48,588 nt of DNA from assembly GCA_025201365.1 (NCBI GenBank), contig JAIXMF010000064.1, positions 1 to 48,588 of the forward strand, read 5' to 3'. The position numbers and the translations under genes are program-made. Each line of letters opens with the position of its first letter. Within the stretch, counting starts at the first letter, position 1. The DNA comes from Syncephalis plumigaleata (lineage: Eukaryota; Zoopagomycota; Zoopagomycetes; Zoopagales; Piptocephalidaceae). The notes under the pieces are model-generated. The model worked only from the letters and a program-made list of their open reading frames with translations, was not told the DNA's origin and did not search any database. Positions 1,091 to 25,661 of this stretch are shown one piece after another.

Positions 1091-4000
1091 ATGCATTCTT
1101 CTTCGTCACTACGCCAGTGGCTTAGAGAGCTACGTGCTCAACTAGCCAATACGCATACTGATATCAATACAGTTCATGCACTGTTAGCTCCTCTAATCTG
1201 GTTGGGTATCGATTGTCCTAGTGATAACAGTATCAGTACAGTGGCAACCCCACCCGTTGAAGCTACACTTATCACGCGTATACAACTGGTGGAATCAGCA
1301 TTCCCTGAACATACTCGCTTTCTACTACGACATGTATGCGTTAATTGGACACTAGCCTTTACGAATGAACAACGAAAACAATACTTTGACCCTTACTTCC
1401 TATGGATATCTAACAAGGATACTACTACTAGTACTACTACTAGTACTGAAATGCGATTACTCTTAGGTGCTATTCATGCCAATAGCTTACGCACGCTAAC
1501 AAACGCACTGTCAGAGGACTGGGCCAATCAGGATCGATTTATTATGTCAACTGTATGGCGACTACTCACTAGTTTGATACAGCAATTGGATATTGCTACA
1601 CTTTATAAAAGCCAAATGGATACTACTACGAAAACAACACCAACCTGGCATGATATAGCCAATATTCTATGCTCACTACCTACTCGAGTAAGCAATGCAA
1701 TGGCAGGAGGATCACCAGTAACACCTCTACTAGAAACAACGTATCCTTTATAGTAGATGTTATCGTATTAGTTATATGATTTAACCATCTGAACAGCATG
1801 TATTTTCGTCATATAACTCGATTGATTCATGATGCATTAGAAGTGGAATACATAGAAGTATAGCAATTATGATATGCAATATATTAGATGACTAATAGTA
1901 GTTTTAGATAGTGATACGAATTACGAACTATTCCTTAAGCATATGTCACAGTTTATCGAACGATGTATACGATTAGGCTATGGAGGTAGAATGCAATCGA
2001 CTAGTATTGATGTGTATTCACTAATATTGATTAAATGCTTAGAGACTATGACACCTACTCTATTAGCAACTCATCGAAGATCAGTACATAATGTATGGCC
2101 ACATCTATTGACACGAATAGCATTACCGCAAAAGCATCAGCTGTTGAAGTTGATATTACAAGAGTTGATGCATTCCACTCGAGGTAATACTAGTGCATAT
2201 ATATATATCTAGTATCTAGTATCTAGCATCTAATTACACTATGATCCCAAGTAGATATTGATTCAGCAGAACAGACACTCATCAATGCACTAATACAACC
2301 TGATTATTTATGTCAACTAATGAATGGACACAAGAACAAAAGAATATGTATATACATACAATTCAGCAGTGCTTAATTAATACTCAATGGACAAGCTGGA
2401 TGGTATATGCATTTATTAAGCATATCATGTCAATATTAGATCAACAAATGGATAAAGGTAAGTGAATACTAGATGTCATTGATGTAACTGAAATAACCGC
2501 GTATGTCACTAGATGATATTCAATCACAAATACTAAATCAATTGATTGGTCATTGGGGTGAACGTGTATTTATTCAGTCAGTGGATAGAGCAGGACAACA
2601 AAGTAAGTTGTTACCATAGAGTTATAGTCTACTTACATGTATAATGAATAGGAATAACGCAGATCATTCTATTCATGTTGAAGCACGTAACACGTAAAGC
2701 AGTGAAGGATGTTGCACATACATCTATATTTCTGGATGCCATTAATAGACGACTAGATAGCATGAATCATTTCAATAGAAAGATAGGCATGGTAATTACA
2801 AGAGGAAGAGAAATTAGTAATATTAATAAAATTGACTTACTTGTTACATGACAGATTACTGCAGAAGCATTCTCAGATATTGCTAGTTCAACAGAGGATA
2901 AACTTGATTTTGATTTAGATGCAAAAGATGCTGATGTCATTTTATTACGCAGTCTTGCCTCTACACCAAAGTTACCGGAACAATCTACTACTATTGATGA
3001 TACTCAATTAGTATCGACATTGACACCGAATGATAATGAAGTAGAACAAGAACAAGAACATGGATATGAAGGCAATGATGATGATGATGATGATCCTGAT
3101 GCACTTGTTCGACCAATAGATGAATTATCGGATCAAGAGGAGGAAGAGGAACAATATAAAGAACTGAATAAAATGAAAGGCAAGTACATGACACGTCATC
3201 AAATAGACATAATGAATAATGAATGAGAACAGATGAGAGTACAGAATGGAAAACTCGGAAACCAAGGTAAATAGTCGAGTGAGATGATGGTGTCATCTAT
3301 TACTTACTAACCATTCAATTAGATATTTACGTGATCTTGTTCAGTATTTGAAATCAGATGATGATATTGACAAATGGATGGTTGGCATTACAAGTGCAGC
3401 AGAGCTTATTGATCTTGTAACTGAAGAAACTTTAGGTATGTATATAGATATATATATATATAGATTACACTATTAATACTATGGTTGTGGTTATTAGCTG
3501 TATGGGCAGTATCATTAGCACGACAATTAGTGCACTTACAAGATACATTTGAACAACCGGAATTCATTCCTGCATTACGTGCTGCATTAATTAGTTTAAT
3601 GAAGAAGAGTGATGAAGCTACCAGGTAAGTAGCTGTCTATTGATTGTAGATTAGTAAGAGTGGAATGTGATTAACCATTCAAAGATATATTATTCAATTT
3701 ATGAGCGATCGAGATTGTTCATTATCACGACGTGTATTACTACTAGATTGTATACGGCAGTTGACGCATTACTTGAATGAATTACCCGCTCCAATTGATA
3801 AGGAGGTATGCCATGAATGACTGCATCAATTAATTAATTGTGAATGGCACTGACTTGCTAATCAACTAGGAGGCAAAAGTACTACAACCAACTGGCACTG
3901 TTGTATGGACATCGTCACGACTTCAATTGGCAACTAGTCAAGGTACAACGAAATGGATGCAACGACATAGTGCGATTATTCAACAACTACTTGATGCTAG

Positions 4001-4589
4001 TCTTGATAATGATCCCAGGTAATTGCGTAACATACTCGTGATACTACGTGGAATGATTAACCATTGAAATAGAAGTATTATATTACAAGATGTATTAACA
4101 CTACGTGCCTATATTACAACACTTGCTGATATGCTTGCATTATCGAGTAAGTTACGTGATGATACCTTACTATTTGTGCTAACTAGACATTAATGACTAT
4201 CGACTAGAAAACTCACCAGATCTATGGCGATTATGTCACCCGTTCATTGAACTATTAATGCCATTACGATATCATCCTAATCCTGAAATAGTTGAGATAG
4301 TACTTGTTGGCTTTATTGCCATTGTATCCACATTGAATGCTAATGTGCACACGGAATTCCTAAGTTACATACGACCTATTCATGACTGGCTTACAGGTAA
4401 GTATAGATATACTTATGAATGACGTGTCTATCTATAATAATAATGCTATCAATACTAGGATTATTTACCGAGTCAGCAGCCGTTCAACTTCAACCGCAAA
4501 TAGTTACACTTGGTTCAGCATTGAGTGCATTTAGTGAAAAGGCTGAAGTAAATATACATCAAATGCTAGATCATTTGGACATTGAATAA
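1091..4589 (+). CDS. TEL2: TELO2/Tel2-like protein, TTT complex subunit (15 exons, one apparent frame break)
   Basis: HEAT-repeat protein of the TELO2/Tel2 family, which with TTI1 and TTI2 helps mature PIKK kinases (TOR, ATM/ATR, Tra1). The exon chain matches TELO2 along its length: an N-terminal S-L-P-T-R-V-S-N block, a region ending in K-I-G-M-V-I, an acidic linker with D-D-D-D-P-D followed by P-R-Y-L-R-D-L, and a C-terminal L-R-Y-H-P-N-P-E block ending D-I-E-stop. Introns inferred (first to last base): 1741-1796, 1858-1939, 2184 to about 2250, 2458-2512, 2603-2651, 2792-2854, 3180-3232 (GC-AG), 3267-3322, 3436-3497, 3625-3684, 3806-3869, 4019-4072, 4147-4207 and 4397-4458. Between about 2300 and 2335 two well-matching segments lie in different frames, so either one base is missing or intron 3 extends to 2334 and skips family-like sequence. 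EAF7 follows 103 bp downstream on the same strand. Confidence 0.82.
3180..3232 (+). other. GC-AG intron in TELO2
   Basis: The donor is G|GCAAGT and the acceptor AACAG. Reading through gives a stop within 16 codons, whereas removing 53 nt joins the acidic linker to D-E-S-T-E-W and then, across the next intron, to P-R-Y-L-R-D-L, as TELO2 expects. An acceptor 12 nt further on keeps the same frame. Confidence 0.65.
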
Positions 4590-5278: not shown

Positions 5279-5445
5279 CAATAGTAGTAGTAATCATCAG
5301 TATTCACCTTTTATTATTCAATGGATATTGTATAGACTGTAAACTCTAGCATTAATAAACATGATAATCACTTTTTGATATTAACTCGTCGTCTATGTCA
5401 AGTCAATTAATACGCGTTTTATTAAGAGTGGTAATGCTGACATTA

Positions 5446-6062
5446 CAAGCTTTTTCCATCCAATTTGCGCAGTTAGCCTTCTGTTTTTACGAATAAATAA
5501 TTGTTATAATAACACTTACAAGTATTTCTACCCCCGTATTTTGGGTGCCTTGTCGCTTGGGCGACAGTGCGGCGGTTGACGATACAACCTGGTTAATTTG
5601 TTTTTTGATGTTTGTGTTCCTCTTGATCTTGCTCATCTTGATCTTGATCTTCATTTAGTGAATGCTTTGCGGACGTGCTAGGATCAGGAGGAGAAACGGC
5701 ACCTCGATGGAATTGTGTTGGAATACCCTTTTCCTTACGAACACTACGAATAATCTGAATAAAATTCAGACATGCTGCCATATCCCAATTCCATACATGA
5801 TAATCAATAGCTACTTGTAAGTACATGACATGGCAATATCCAACTATACTAGTACACTTGTATCGTCTATCTTATAGAATTGATGATGATAGTTATCGCT
5901 ATCAATCAATGATCCATTACTGAATACTGAATTATTATTATTATCATGCTGTATCAACTGGCATTTCTACGGTGATAATGGTGTTAACAATTGTGTAGAG
6001 TTATTTATTCATAAAGAGCAAATGTTAAAGGATAAATGCGCAAATTGGATGGAAAAACACTG
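5446..6062. mobile_element. Fanzor-tail MITE-like element, copy 1 (617 bp)
   Basis: A dispersed element also present at 23432-23979 and 24901-25448. TA dinucleotides flank it (5444-5445 and 6063-6064). Left end CAAGCTTTTTCCATCC, right end (reverse complement) CAGTGTTTTTCCATCC; both continue into CAATTTGCGCA, and a second shared block ATTGTTAACAC-like lies further in. Ends plus TA duplication point to a Tc1/mariner-type transposase, none of which is encoded here, so the copy is non-autonomous. The minus strand keeps a reading frame resembling the C-terminus of a Fanzor/TnpB-type protein. Copy 1 differs from the other two in its left interior (around 5535-5590), where TGTCGC-TTGG-GCGACA forms a perfect 6-bp hairpin. 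Confidence 0.7.
5593..5871 (-). pseudogene. Fanzor/TnpB-type C-terminal fragment, copy 1
   Basis: The frame is open from about 5871, upstream of the ATG at 5826, to the stop at 5593. It reads Y-K-C-T-S-I-V-G-Y-C-H, then V-A-I-D-Y-H-V-W-N-W-D-M-A-A-C-L-N, then I-P-T-Q-F-H-R and a Glu/Asp/Gln-rich tail. T-S followed by a Cys/His knuckle and then N-R-D-x3-A-x2-N is the C-terminal arrangement described for TnpB and eukaryotic Fanzor proteins, where the Asp is the third RuvC residue. Here Arg is Trp, the first Cys of the knuckle is absent, and everything upstream, including the other RuvC acids, is missing. It cannot be an active nuclease. Family assignment is from motif memory, not a search. Confidence 0.55.
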
Positions 6063-6185
6063 TATTGCTGTAAAGTAGGAATTTAAAAAATATTTTTTCT
6101 ATTTATCGCTTTTTGACGATTCTTGCTATTATTTTACGGATTCTCGTTTTGATTGTTGTCCTCATTAACTTGATCTAAAGTAATA

Positions 6186-23079: not shown

Positions 23080-23431
23080 AATAGTGAGTACTTGACATAC
23101 ATATACGATAGGCAAATCTCGTATCGTTTAATGATTTATCCGATATTGATGAACAGCCTCGCACAAGTCTGCTGCTGCTGCTGCCGCTGACATGTTGCAT
23201 CGTACTATATCATAACCTGTACATGAGCATTGCCGATGAAACAGACCATTGCATGCAATGAAATGACATCAACCACGGTGACACACATACATCTATTTTT
23301 AAGTGTATAATCAACTTGAACTTTTGACATGCAAATCGTATAATTGCAATAGGGAAGCGCGTATTATCTCGTTGCATCAAATAGTCATTACATGATACCT
23401 TTGATATACATAATAAACATATAGTATTCTA
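22644..23431. other. Spacer between CYSTM1 and mobile element copy 2
   Basis: Contains a purine-rich GAAAGG tract (about 22785-22830) next to the CYSTM1 leader and a perfect ATC microsatellite at 23049-23079. The frames across these repeats encode poly-Asp or Ser/Phe strings and are not credible genes. Confidence 0.5.
23049..23079. repeat. ATC trinucleotide microsatellite
   Basis: About ten consecutive ATC units in noncoding sequence. Confidence 0.9.
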
Positions 23432-23979
23432 CAGGCTTTTTCCATCCAATTTGCGCAGTTAGCCTTCTGCTTTTACGAATAAATAAAGATGATGTTAACA
23501 CTTACAATTACCCTGTATTTTGGGGTGTAGATAGCGATAACTATCACGGATGAATTGTTATTTGTTGTTTGGTTCCCTCTTGATCTTGCTCATCATTGCT
23601 TGAACGTTTAGAAGGAACGGTACTTCGTTCAAATTGTTCTGGAACACGGTCTTTCTTACGAAGACTGCGGATAATCTGAATGAAATTCAGACATGCCGTC
23701 ATATCACGATTCCATACACGATAATCAATAGCTACTTGTAAGTACATGACATGGCAATATCCAATTATACTAGTACACTTGTATCATCTACCTTATAAAA
23801 TTGATGATGATAGTTATCGCTATCAATAAATGATCCATTACTAATACTGAATTGTTATTATCATGCTGTATCAATTGTCATTTCTATGGTAATAATGGTG
23901 TTAACAATTGTGTTAATCTATTTATTAATAAACTGCAAATGTTAAAGGACAAATGCGCAAATCGGTTAGAAAAACACTG
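23432..23979. mobile_element. Fanzor-tail MITE-like element, copy 2 (548 bp)
   Basis: Flanked by TA at 23430-23431 and 23980-23981. Left end CAGGCTTTTTCCATCC; right end in reverse complement begins CAGTGTTTTTCTAACC, slightly decayed compared with the other copies. Inside each end a 16-bp sequence GATAGCGATAACTATC appears (about 23531 on the plus strand; its reverse complement near 23809), giving a second inverted-repeat level. Same orientation and exact same length as copy 3. It lies 264 bp upstream of the second CYSTM start. Confidence 0.72.
23544..23783 (-). pseudogene. Fanzor/TnpB-type C-terminal fragment, copy 2
   Basis: Open frame with Y-K-C-T-S-I-I-G-Y-C-H-V, then I-D-Y-R-V-W-N-R-D-M-T-A-C-L-N-F, then V-P-E-Q-F-E-R. 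The intact W-N-R-D here is the best match to the Fanzor/TnpB terminal motif among the three copies. The second zinc knuckle expected between Y-C-H and W-N-R-D is missing, which suggests an internal deletion. A stop lies directly upstream of Y-K-C. Confidence 0.58.
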
Positions 23980-24243
23980 TATCTTCTCTACACGTGAGTA
24001 TCAGTGTGAGTGTGAGTGTGGCACAGGTAATTCCATTGTATTTGAAAGAAATACAGTCAGAGAAATTCCATAATAGAATTCGCCAAGAATGGGTTATTTC
24101 TAATGGAATGAGAAATGGCGTTCTTTTTTACGCACAGAATGTGCATGTGTGTGTGCTGTGACTCTTCACTCTTTCTTTCCACTCTTCCCCTTACTTATTT
24201 GTTAGTTTTCAAATTCAATTCCTTATTATCTCATAATATAACC

Positions 24244-24833
24244 ATGTCTATGCCAGATCCAACCACGTACGGTGGACGTACAGAAAAGAACCACGGCTAT
24301 TATACGACAGAGGGAGCACAGCCACCACCACCACCTGCTTATACTCAGAGTTCCTCGTCAGGGCATCAACCCTATGGCGTTCCTCCTCCTAGCCAACAGG
24401 GTAGTGTTGGTTATAGCGGACAACCACCCATGACATATGGTCAGCAAGCAACAACATCCAATACACAGCCTGCCGCAGGAGAGAACGCCTCTTTCTACAA
24501 CAGTAGTGGCAGTAATGATCCAGCCAAACAACATTACGGATATGCTGCACCCGCGGCTTATCCTGCTAATGGTGGACCGGCCTATGGTATGCCACCACCA
24601 CCAGGTCAAGCCTATCAGTCAGGCTATCAGGCATCACCTCAACCAGGCTATGGCTATGGTGCACCGCCTCCACCTCCACCACAGCAACAGCAACAAGGAA
24701 AAGATCATGGTCTATTGTATGGAGTGTAAGTTGATAAGCATTTACCACGTATGACAATTTATAACTAATACTTAATGATACGTATAGTGCATTGGGCGCA
24801 TGTCTATGCTGTTGTTTGAATAAGATTTGCTAG
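24244..24833 (+). CDS. CYSTM-type cysteine-rich membrane protein 2
   Basis: Two exons (24244-24725 and 24788-24833) encode 175 residues. The body is Pro/Gly/Tyr/Gln-rich with P-P-P-P-P-A-Y and Y-G-A-P-P-P-P-P-P runs. The 46-nt last exon encodes A-L-G-A-C-L-C-C-C-L-N-K-I-C, nearly the same as in CYSTM1 and the same length. The ATG at 24244 gives a polar start; the upstream in-frame extension to 24115 is Cys/Phe/Leu-rich, unlike the family, and probably leader. The gene is bracketed by same-orientation element copies 2 and 3, the latter starting 67 bp after its stop. Confidence 0.82.
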
Positions 24834-24900
24834 AATCTCGTCGTAAGCTGTCGTATTATTGCGCGTATAACATATCATTTTATATACTGTGTGCTATCCT

Positions 24901-25448
24901 ACAGGCCTTTTCCATCCAATTTGCGCAGTTAGCCTTATATCTTTACGAATAAACAATTGTTAACACTTACAATTACCCTGTATTTTGGGATGTAAGATAG
25001 CGATAACTATCACGGATGAATTGTTATTTATTGTTTGGTTCCCTCTTGGTCTTGCTCATCATTGCTTGAACGCTTAGAAGGAACGGTACTTCGTTCAAAT
25101 TGTTCTGGAATAAGGTTGTCCTTACAAACACTGTGGATAATCTGAATGAAATTCAGACATGCCGTCATATCACGATTCCATAAACGATAATCAATAGCTA
25201 CTTGTAAGTACATGACATGGCAATATTCAACTATACTAGTACACTTGTATCGTTTACCTTATAGAATTGATGATGATAGTTATCGCTATCAATAAATGAT
25301 CCATTACTAATACTGAATTGTTATTATTATCATGCTATAGCAATTGGCATTTCTATGGTGATAATGGTGTTAACAATTGTGTTAATCTATTTATTAATAA
25401 TCTGCAAATGTTAAAGGATAAATGCGCAAATTGGATGGAAAAACACTG
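24901..25448. mobile_element. Fanzor-tail MITE-like element, copy 3 (548 bp)
   Basis: TA at 24899-24900 and 25449-25450. Left end CAGGCCTTTTCCATCC, right end in reverse complement CAGTGTTTTTCCATCC, both running into CAATTTGCGCA. It has the 16-bp internal inverted repeat GATAGCGATAACTATC like copy 2 and matches copy 2 with scattered substitutions over its whole length. Confidence 0.75.
25028..25258 (-). pseudogene. Fanzor/TnpB-type C-terminal fragment, copy 3
   Basis: Same motif order as copy 2: Y-K-C-T-S-I-V-E-Y-C-H, I-D-Y-R-L-W-N-R-D-M-T-A-C-L-N-F and I-P-E-Q-F-E-R. It stops five codons earlier than copy 2 because a Leu/Gln-type codon has become TAA. The N-terminal nuclease domains are absent. 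Confidence 0.58.
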
Positions 25449-25661
25449 TATAATTAAAGAAGTCCTTACCCGTCTATTACCACCACCACCTGTCATTATT
25501 TATCATTTACGTGACAACAATAGTAACAATAGCAATAAACAACACATAATAGATTCGCTTTATTGATATGTTGCCATTGGGCCATGTTCTAACTAGCTAA
25601 CTAATGAGATATCCGTTCATTCTTGATTAGAATAGTATAGCTTCTTAGTTGTTTGTTTAGC

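Follow-up and report, generated by a model that had tools for sequence, protein, structure and literature searches.

Why should three short, TA-flanked DNA elements carry reading frames that resemble the end of a Fanzor protein but no gene that could move them? The window analyzed here is the entire contig C345 (JAIXMF010000064.1; 48,588 nucleotides) of Syncephalis plumigaleata, taken from an assembly of 32.6 Mb in 383 contigs (GCA_025201365.1). An earlier reading of the window, made from its sequence alone (the sequence-only reading), proposed that the three are internally deleted derivatives of a larger Fanzor-bearing element. We located the copies, identified larger elements with the same ends in the same genome, and used these to interpret what the short copies retain.

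The short elements and their ends

Without their flanking TA dinucleotides, copy 1 occupies positions 5446–6062 (617 bp), copy 2 positions 23432–23979 (548 bp), and copy 3 positions 24902–25448 (547 bp), all in minus orientation; the TAs are located at 5444–5445 and 6063–6064, 23430–23431 and 23980–23981, and 24900–24901 and 25449–25450, respectively. The bounds first given for copies 1 and 2 hold, and the start given for copy 3 (24901) was off by one. As originally described, all three copies have inverted ends, built around TTTTTCCATCCAATTTGCGCA, with TA on both sides; the right end of copy 2 is degenerate (three mismatches in the 21-mer), and copy 3 has a single mismatch, at its left end.

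The 21-bp end occurs with at most two mismatches at 949 sites in the assembly (476 + 473), and its reversed control occurs at none. A 548-bp query (copy 3) has at least 40 full-length matches with 84–100% identity, scored among 926 first-look candidates; this list includes two of the three copies in the window, copy 1 being absent. Copies with shared ends are thus present far beyond chance. The window copies are short, noncoding, bounded by inverted ends, numerous, and related to a larger element, that is, they have the properties of MITEs; TA target duplications with inverted ends, the hallmark of Tc1/mariner elements, are found in both the MITEs and the larger element. The earlier observation that the copies lack a DDE transposase also stands: none of the 31 genome matches to PF13358 (DDE_3) is located in the window, or in the 20 parent regions described below.

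Copies 2 and 3 are in like orientation, 0.9 kb apart, and flank a gene (approximately 24244–24829) whose product is rich in proline and has a short C-rich end (GLLYGV...LGACLCCCLNKIC, by eye).

Parent elements with a Fanzor1 gene

Parents were sought with the Pfam TNB-domain profile (PF07282), a model that also needs the second exon of the Fanzor gene; it gave 25 weak matches in the genome, none over the cut-off (best 21.3 vs 26.3 bits), and 20 regions around such matches were taken. Both ends were assigned in 14 of the 20, one end in four, and no end in two; 13 of the 14 elements are 3,988–4,236 bp long and one is 5,874 bp. The same assembly therefore contains what the sequence-only reading had anticipated, a parent of 2–5 kb with the same ends: elements of ~4.0–4.2 kb that have the 21-bp inverted ends of the MITEs, TA flanks, and a Fanzor1-type gene.

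A stop-free main exon, extending from MA to HGL[LI]R, was extracted from nine of the 14 elements. The main-exon frame of one parent (L031) matches PpFz1 with an e-value of 2.7e-105, SpuFz1 with 1.9e-34, and GtFz1 with 0.001, so the protein encoded across the region deleted in the MITEs is a Fanzor1 by homology to characterized members, not an unrelated protein. The last exon (WNRD...F-x-R), which starts with CTHQTC and ends with LWNRDMAACLNFIQIIRSVR...PTQFHR after an intron placed by eye, matches PpFz1 with an e-value of 0.0041. The pattern given for Fanzor proteins in PMC3627910, D-X(125,275)-[TS]-[TS]-X-X-[C4 zinc finger]-X(5,50)-RD, can be followed by eye in the parents as DPGRRNLL, then KTSKCCPAC, CTHQTC, and RD, with a zinc finger that spans the intron placed by eye; the spacer preceding RD exceeds 50 residues in copies with acidic repeats (not in E24). 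NCBIfam gave no relevant match. We assign the parent protein to Fanzor1 and predict that it is an RNA-guided nuclease.

Genome-wide, there are at least 41 Fanzor loci (85 matches grouped; 68 of 73 candidates scored), and at least 29 of the 41 have an open frame of at least 600 aa. The count of 29 leaves out two loci whose matches contain several stops; 10 of the 29 have one or two stops flagged in the aligned stretch, and these may precede the start codon because the query begins upstream of it. Among nine copies picked for open frames, dN/dS has a median of 0.44 (range 0.20–0.59; 36 pairs), suggesting that the Fanzor protein has been under purifying selection. Many Fanzor genes in this genome are apparently intact, and the expectation that the genome has, or had, a full-length nuclease gene is borne out by these predicted Fanzor1 frames.

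The parents also share a 5′ leader of ~1.6 kb upstream of the Fanzor frame (e.g., L031 and L024), with 84–97% identity in most 100-bp bins and 0.70 in one. Four frames in this leader contain no credible domain and no recognized gene, so we rejected the idea that it hides a transposase.

In some parents, the last exon contains tandem acidic repeats (EEEQEDLMDVDD-like) in varying number (L031:1405–1896, minus strand; also L029, L032, and L034); these follow the second zinc knuckle, precede the RD motif, and are absent in others, e.g., E24. In one region (G000:C1:569795–574000, L064), a different DDE_3 element with perfect inverted repeats of 213 bp is apparently nested inside a Fanzor gene.

A probable single internal deletion

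MITEs are, in general, internal-deletion derivatives of DNA transposons; they are short, occur in many copies, and have kept the ends and lost the coding middle of the parent. In the orientation of the element, nucleotides 1–254 of copy 1 correspond to 1–253 of parent E31 and, after a few bases, nucleotides 260–621 correspond to 3894–4236 of E31. On the minus strand of the window, these are a 5′-derived part at 5811–6064 (92% identical to E31) and a 3′-derived part at 5444–5805 that contains the tail of the last exon, the 3′ region, and the 3′ inverted end. Copies 2 and 3 are built alike, with breakpoints that match those of copy 1 relative to the parent; their 5′-derived parts are at 23732–23981 and 25198–25450, and their 3′-derived parts at 23430–23726 and 24900–25192 (all minus strand). 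The MITEs therefore align to both ends of the parent with the middle missing, as proposed for internally deleted derivatives of a Fanzor-bearing element; the accompanying statement that they retain its 3′ end is correct for the last ~345 bp and incomplete, in that the first ~253 bp of the 5′ end are kept as well.

The 3′-derived part of copy 1 is 83% identical to E31 and about 80–88% identical to parents among the BLASTN matches listed. For copies 2 and 3, the 5′-derived parts are 93–95% identical to E31 whereas the 3′-derived parts are only ~70% identical, so their direct parent may belong to another subfamily or be a chimera.

Genome-wide, there are 191 occurrences of the deletion junction (90 + 101, at most three mismatches; control 0), and five MITE copies that were examined have the same junction; this implies one founder. 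A deletion would have fused the first ~253 bp and the last ~345 bp of the parent, and the shared junction suggests that the founder MITE then multiplied to about 190 copies. We consider it very probable that the MITEs are derivatives of a ~4.2 kb TA-inserting Tc1/mariner-type transposon in which Fanzor1 is the only recognized gene, and that they arose by one deletion and multiplied from the founder; they would have been moved in trans.

Two further classes share these ends. A ~230 bp class (three copies examined) consists of 178 bp from the 5′ end and 63 bp from the 3′ end; a ~1.1 kb class (two copies examined, L077 and L078) consists of 91 bp from the 5′ end, a piece of the parent (3581–3672), and the 3′ end. 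The ~1.1 kb class has other sequence in its middle, and 40 paired copies are located on contigs C1–C223.

A candidate transposase and the choice of insertion site

Movement in trans would call for a DDE transposase that recognizes the shared ends. The best helper candidate that we found among the DDE_3 family is an element with five copies that are 100% identical over 2.22 kb, and both of its ends were located at a spacing of 4.53 kb (L045, L079, and L080; contig C90:380462–384987). It contains a 383-aa frame with DDE_3 and HTH domains and, by eye, DD34E spacing. Its end is identical to the 5′ end of the Fanzor elements at 37 of 49 positions and to the 3′ end at 34 of 49 (69–76%); for each Fanzor end, none of 20000 shuffles reached this similarity. 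This recently active element, with ends related to those of the Fanzor elements, is a plausible source of the transposase. A second, divergent frame in the element (at most 180 aa) is HTH-like by eye, and degenerate minisatellite arrays are located between the two genes.

The insertion sites have a one-sided preference. At 154 of 237 exact 5′ ends the TA is preceded by A, vs 61 of 248 exact 3′ ends (Fisher, 2e-19), and A precedes TA in 33% of cases in the window as background; among the extracted Fanzor elements whose 5′ end is readable, A is found in 12 of 15, counting one with a mutated end (L036). Separated by size class, the ends listed for contigs C1–C223 (143 5′ and 146 3′) have A at the 5′ and 3′ flanks, respectively, of 4/9 and 2/9 in the ~230 bp class, 20/28 and 13/28 in the ~550–620 bp class, 29/40 and 10/40 in the ~1.1 kb class, and 5/8 and 4/8 in the ~4.2 kb class; A precedes 31 of 55 unpaired 5′ ends and none of three others.

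The A-TA bias at 5′ ends fits the ATN target-adjacent motif (TAM) described for PpFz1 (PMC11423790) but may instead reflect a preference of the transposase. We rejected the bias as proof of a TAM: in the 4.53 kb DDE element, which is free of Fanzor, A is found at 7 of 12 ends on the transposase side vs none of nine other ends (one more A end is of unspecified side), and the 3′ flanks of the ~550–620 bp class have A at 13 of 28. A transposase that by itself prefers insertion sites asymmetrically, with the MITEs as plain passengers and no role for RNA, is a reasonably probable explanation. It is favored by the one-sided A of the Fanzor-free element and by the differing ends of the Fanzor elements (CAGTG and CAGGC), which can yield asymmetry. 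By inspection, the DDE element has identical ends over about 59 bp, so the ends cannot account for its asymmetry, which may reflect the small sample and some shared history, two of the loci (L056 and L057) sharing a flank.

The conserved 3′ end

The MITEs and parents are most alike at the extreme 3′ end. Counting back from the end (14 parents and eight MITEs), parent–MITE identity is 0.36–0.50 at −149 to −76, 0.85 at −75 to −64, 0.86 at −63 to −38, and 0.98 at −37 to −1; no comparable drop is found at the 5′ end of the same elements. In copy 1, these terminal ~75–80 nt, located at 5444–5523 (minus strand), are a candidate remnant of an ωRNA scaffold. RNAalifold predicts two main stems, of 7 bp and then 5 bp, in the last ~75 nt, common to parents and MITEs, and the ωRNA of PpFz1 is described as 75 nt with a 7-bp SL1 and a 4-bp SL2 (PMC11423790). 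Though they are no proof, these features would fit retention by the MITEs of the likely guide-RNA scaffold of the parents.

If so, the Fanzor encoded by the parent and an RNA from its 3′ end would, by homology, most likely cut the empty site next to the A-TA motif, and such cutting would help to retain the element. An extension is that the MITEs are guide-RNA-only satellites in which the scaffold, guided by the sequence that adjoins the TA outside the element, directs Fanzor supplied in trans to cut the empty site and restore the MITE. The rise in identity over the last 75 nt, the resemblance of the predicted stems to SL1 and SL2, and the A before TA at 5′ ends, as expected for ATN, all point this way, as does the ~230 bp class, in which the 5′ arm of the first stem differs by eye and A is found in only 4/9 vs 49/68 for the two larger MITE classes (~550–620 bp and ~1.1 kb); that difference, however, is not significant (p=0.13). 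In the predicted stems, 98% of the cells are paired, but compensatory changes are absent from every pair and 500 of 500 shuffles reach the observed values; single-sequence folds of the 3′ end are inconsistent between copies and lengths, and Rfam gave no family match in four sources. The terminal conservation may instead serve transposase binding, the A bias need not reflect a TAM given the one-sided A of the Fanzor-free element, and in the ~550–620 bp class A is common at the 3′ flank as well as the 5′ flank. We regard guide-RNA-only satellites as rather unlikely. The full scenario, in which MITE copies are restored at empty alleles cut by Fanzor from intact parents so that the nuclease is parasitized by about 190 RNA-only elements, we regard as more doubtful still.

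The reading frame kept in the MITEs

The internal deletion also explains the coding remnant. The three motifs originally reported, T-S-I-[IV]-x-Y-C-H, W-N-[RW]-D-M-x-A-C-L-N, and P-x-Q-F-x-R, are present in the minus-strand frames of all three copies; their assignment to a Fanzor tail holds for the second and third and fails for the first. In copy 1, WNWDMAACLN (5764–5793) is in the 3′-derived part and is a remnant of the Fanzor RD motif (WNRDMAACLN in the parent), and the stretch from this motif to P-x-Q-F-x-R is genuine last-exon sequence. TSIVGYCH is encoded at 5830–5853 (codon positions by hand), in the 5′-derived part; we rejected its interpretation as the Fanzor T-S and zinc finger because it is encoded by 5′-terminal DNA of the parent that was accidentally joined in frame. 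The zinc finger of the parent consists of EHKTSKCCPAC, encoded in the main exon, and CTHQTC, with which the last exon opens; both are lost in the MITEs.

The profile search that had been suggested for these frames does not place them: Pfam TNB does not match the MITE frames, the frame of copy 1 matches no solved structure, and that of copy 2 matches the Fanzor1 chains of solved structures with e-values of 0.043 and 0.063, so the parent carries the Fanzor identification. These weak or absent matches are what a chance resemblance in elements unrelated to Fanzor would give, a reading refuted by the DNA-level identity of the MITEs to both ends of Fanzor-carrying elements and to which we give virtually no credence. 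The frame lacks the RuvC D and E and a complete zinc finger, with only the RD tail left; it is not a Fanzor protein but a fossil of a Fanzor last exon.

Comparison with known systems

The sequence-only reading was right in substance; the parts are of known kinds, and their combination and the satellite question are of interest. At stake is why transposons carry Fanzor. This genome combines at least 29 open Fanzor frames with about 190 one-deletion MITEs, in which defined stretches of the Fanzor 3′ end are either present or missing, and with a transposase element that was recently active and has related ends; it offers a way to ask whether retention is better for short copies that carry the putative guide-RNA end than for those that lack it.

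A literature search on Fanzor with MITE and transposon gave no matching report. PUl-4 and others are Fanzor1-only Tc1/mariner elements (Bao and Jurka, 2013; PMC3627910); as described there, PUl-4, like the parents, has a Fanzor1 gene, mariner-type inverted ends, TA duplications, and no transposase of its own. Unlike PUl-4, the parent is present in multiple copies here, and the genome also contains about 190 one-junction MITEs and further deletion classes.

Among solved structures, the parent protein is closest to PpFz1 from Parasitella parasitica (PDB 9cf0–9cf3; e-value, 2.7e-105), whose reported ATN TAM (PMC11423790) fits the A-TA at Fanzor-element insertions. Between aligned stretches, residues 984–1095 of PpFz1 (about 112 residues) face about 14 residues in the query (530–543); this gap is where the RuvC insertion of PpFz1 would fall. 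Unlike PpFz1, some copies have acidic repeats in the last exon. SpuFz1 from Spizellomyces punctatus (8gkh), with a homologous RuvC and TNB region (e-value, 1.9e-34), is more distant; its reported TAM is CATA (PMC10432273).

The MITEs themselves are of the usual kind. Unlike the usual parents of MITEs, however, the parent has no recognized transposase and carries instead a gene for a predicted RNA-guided nuclease.
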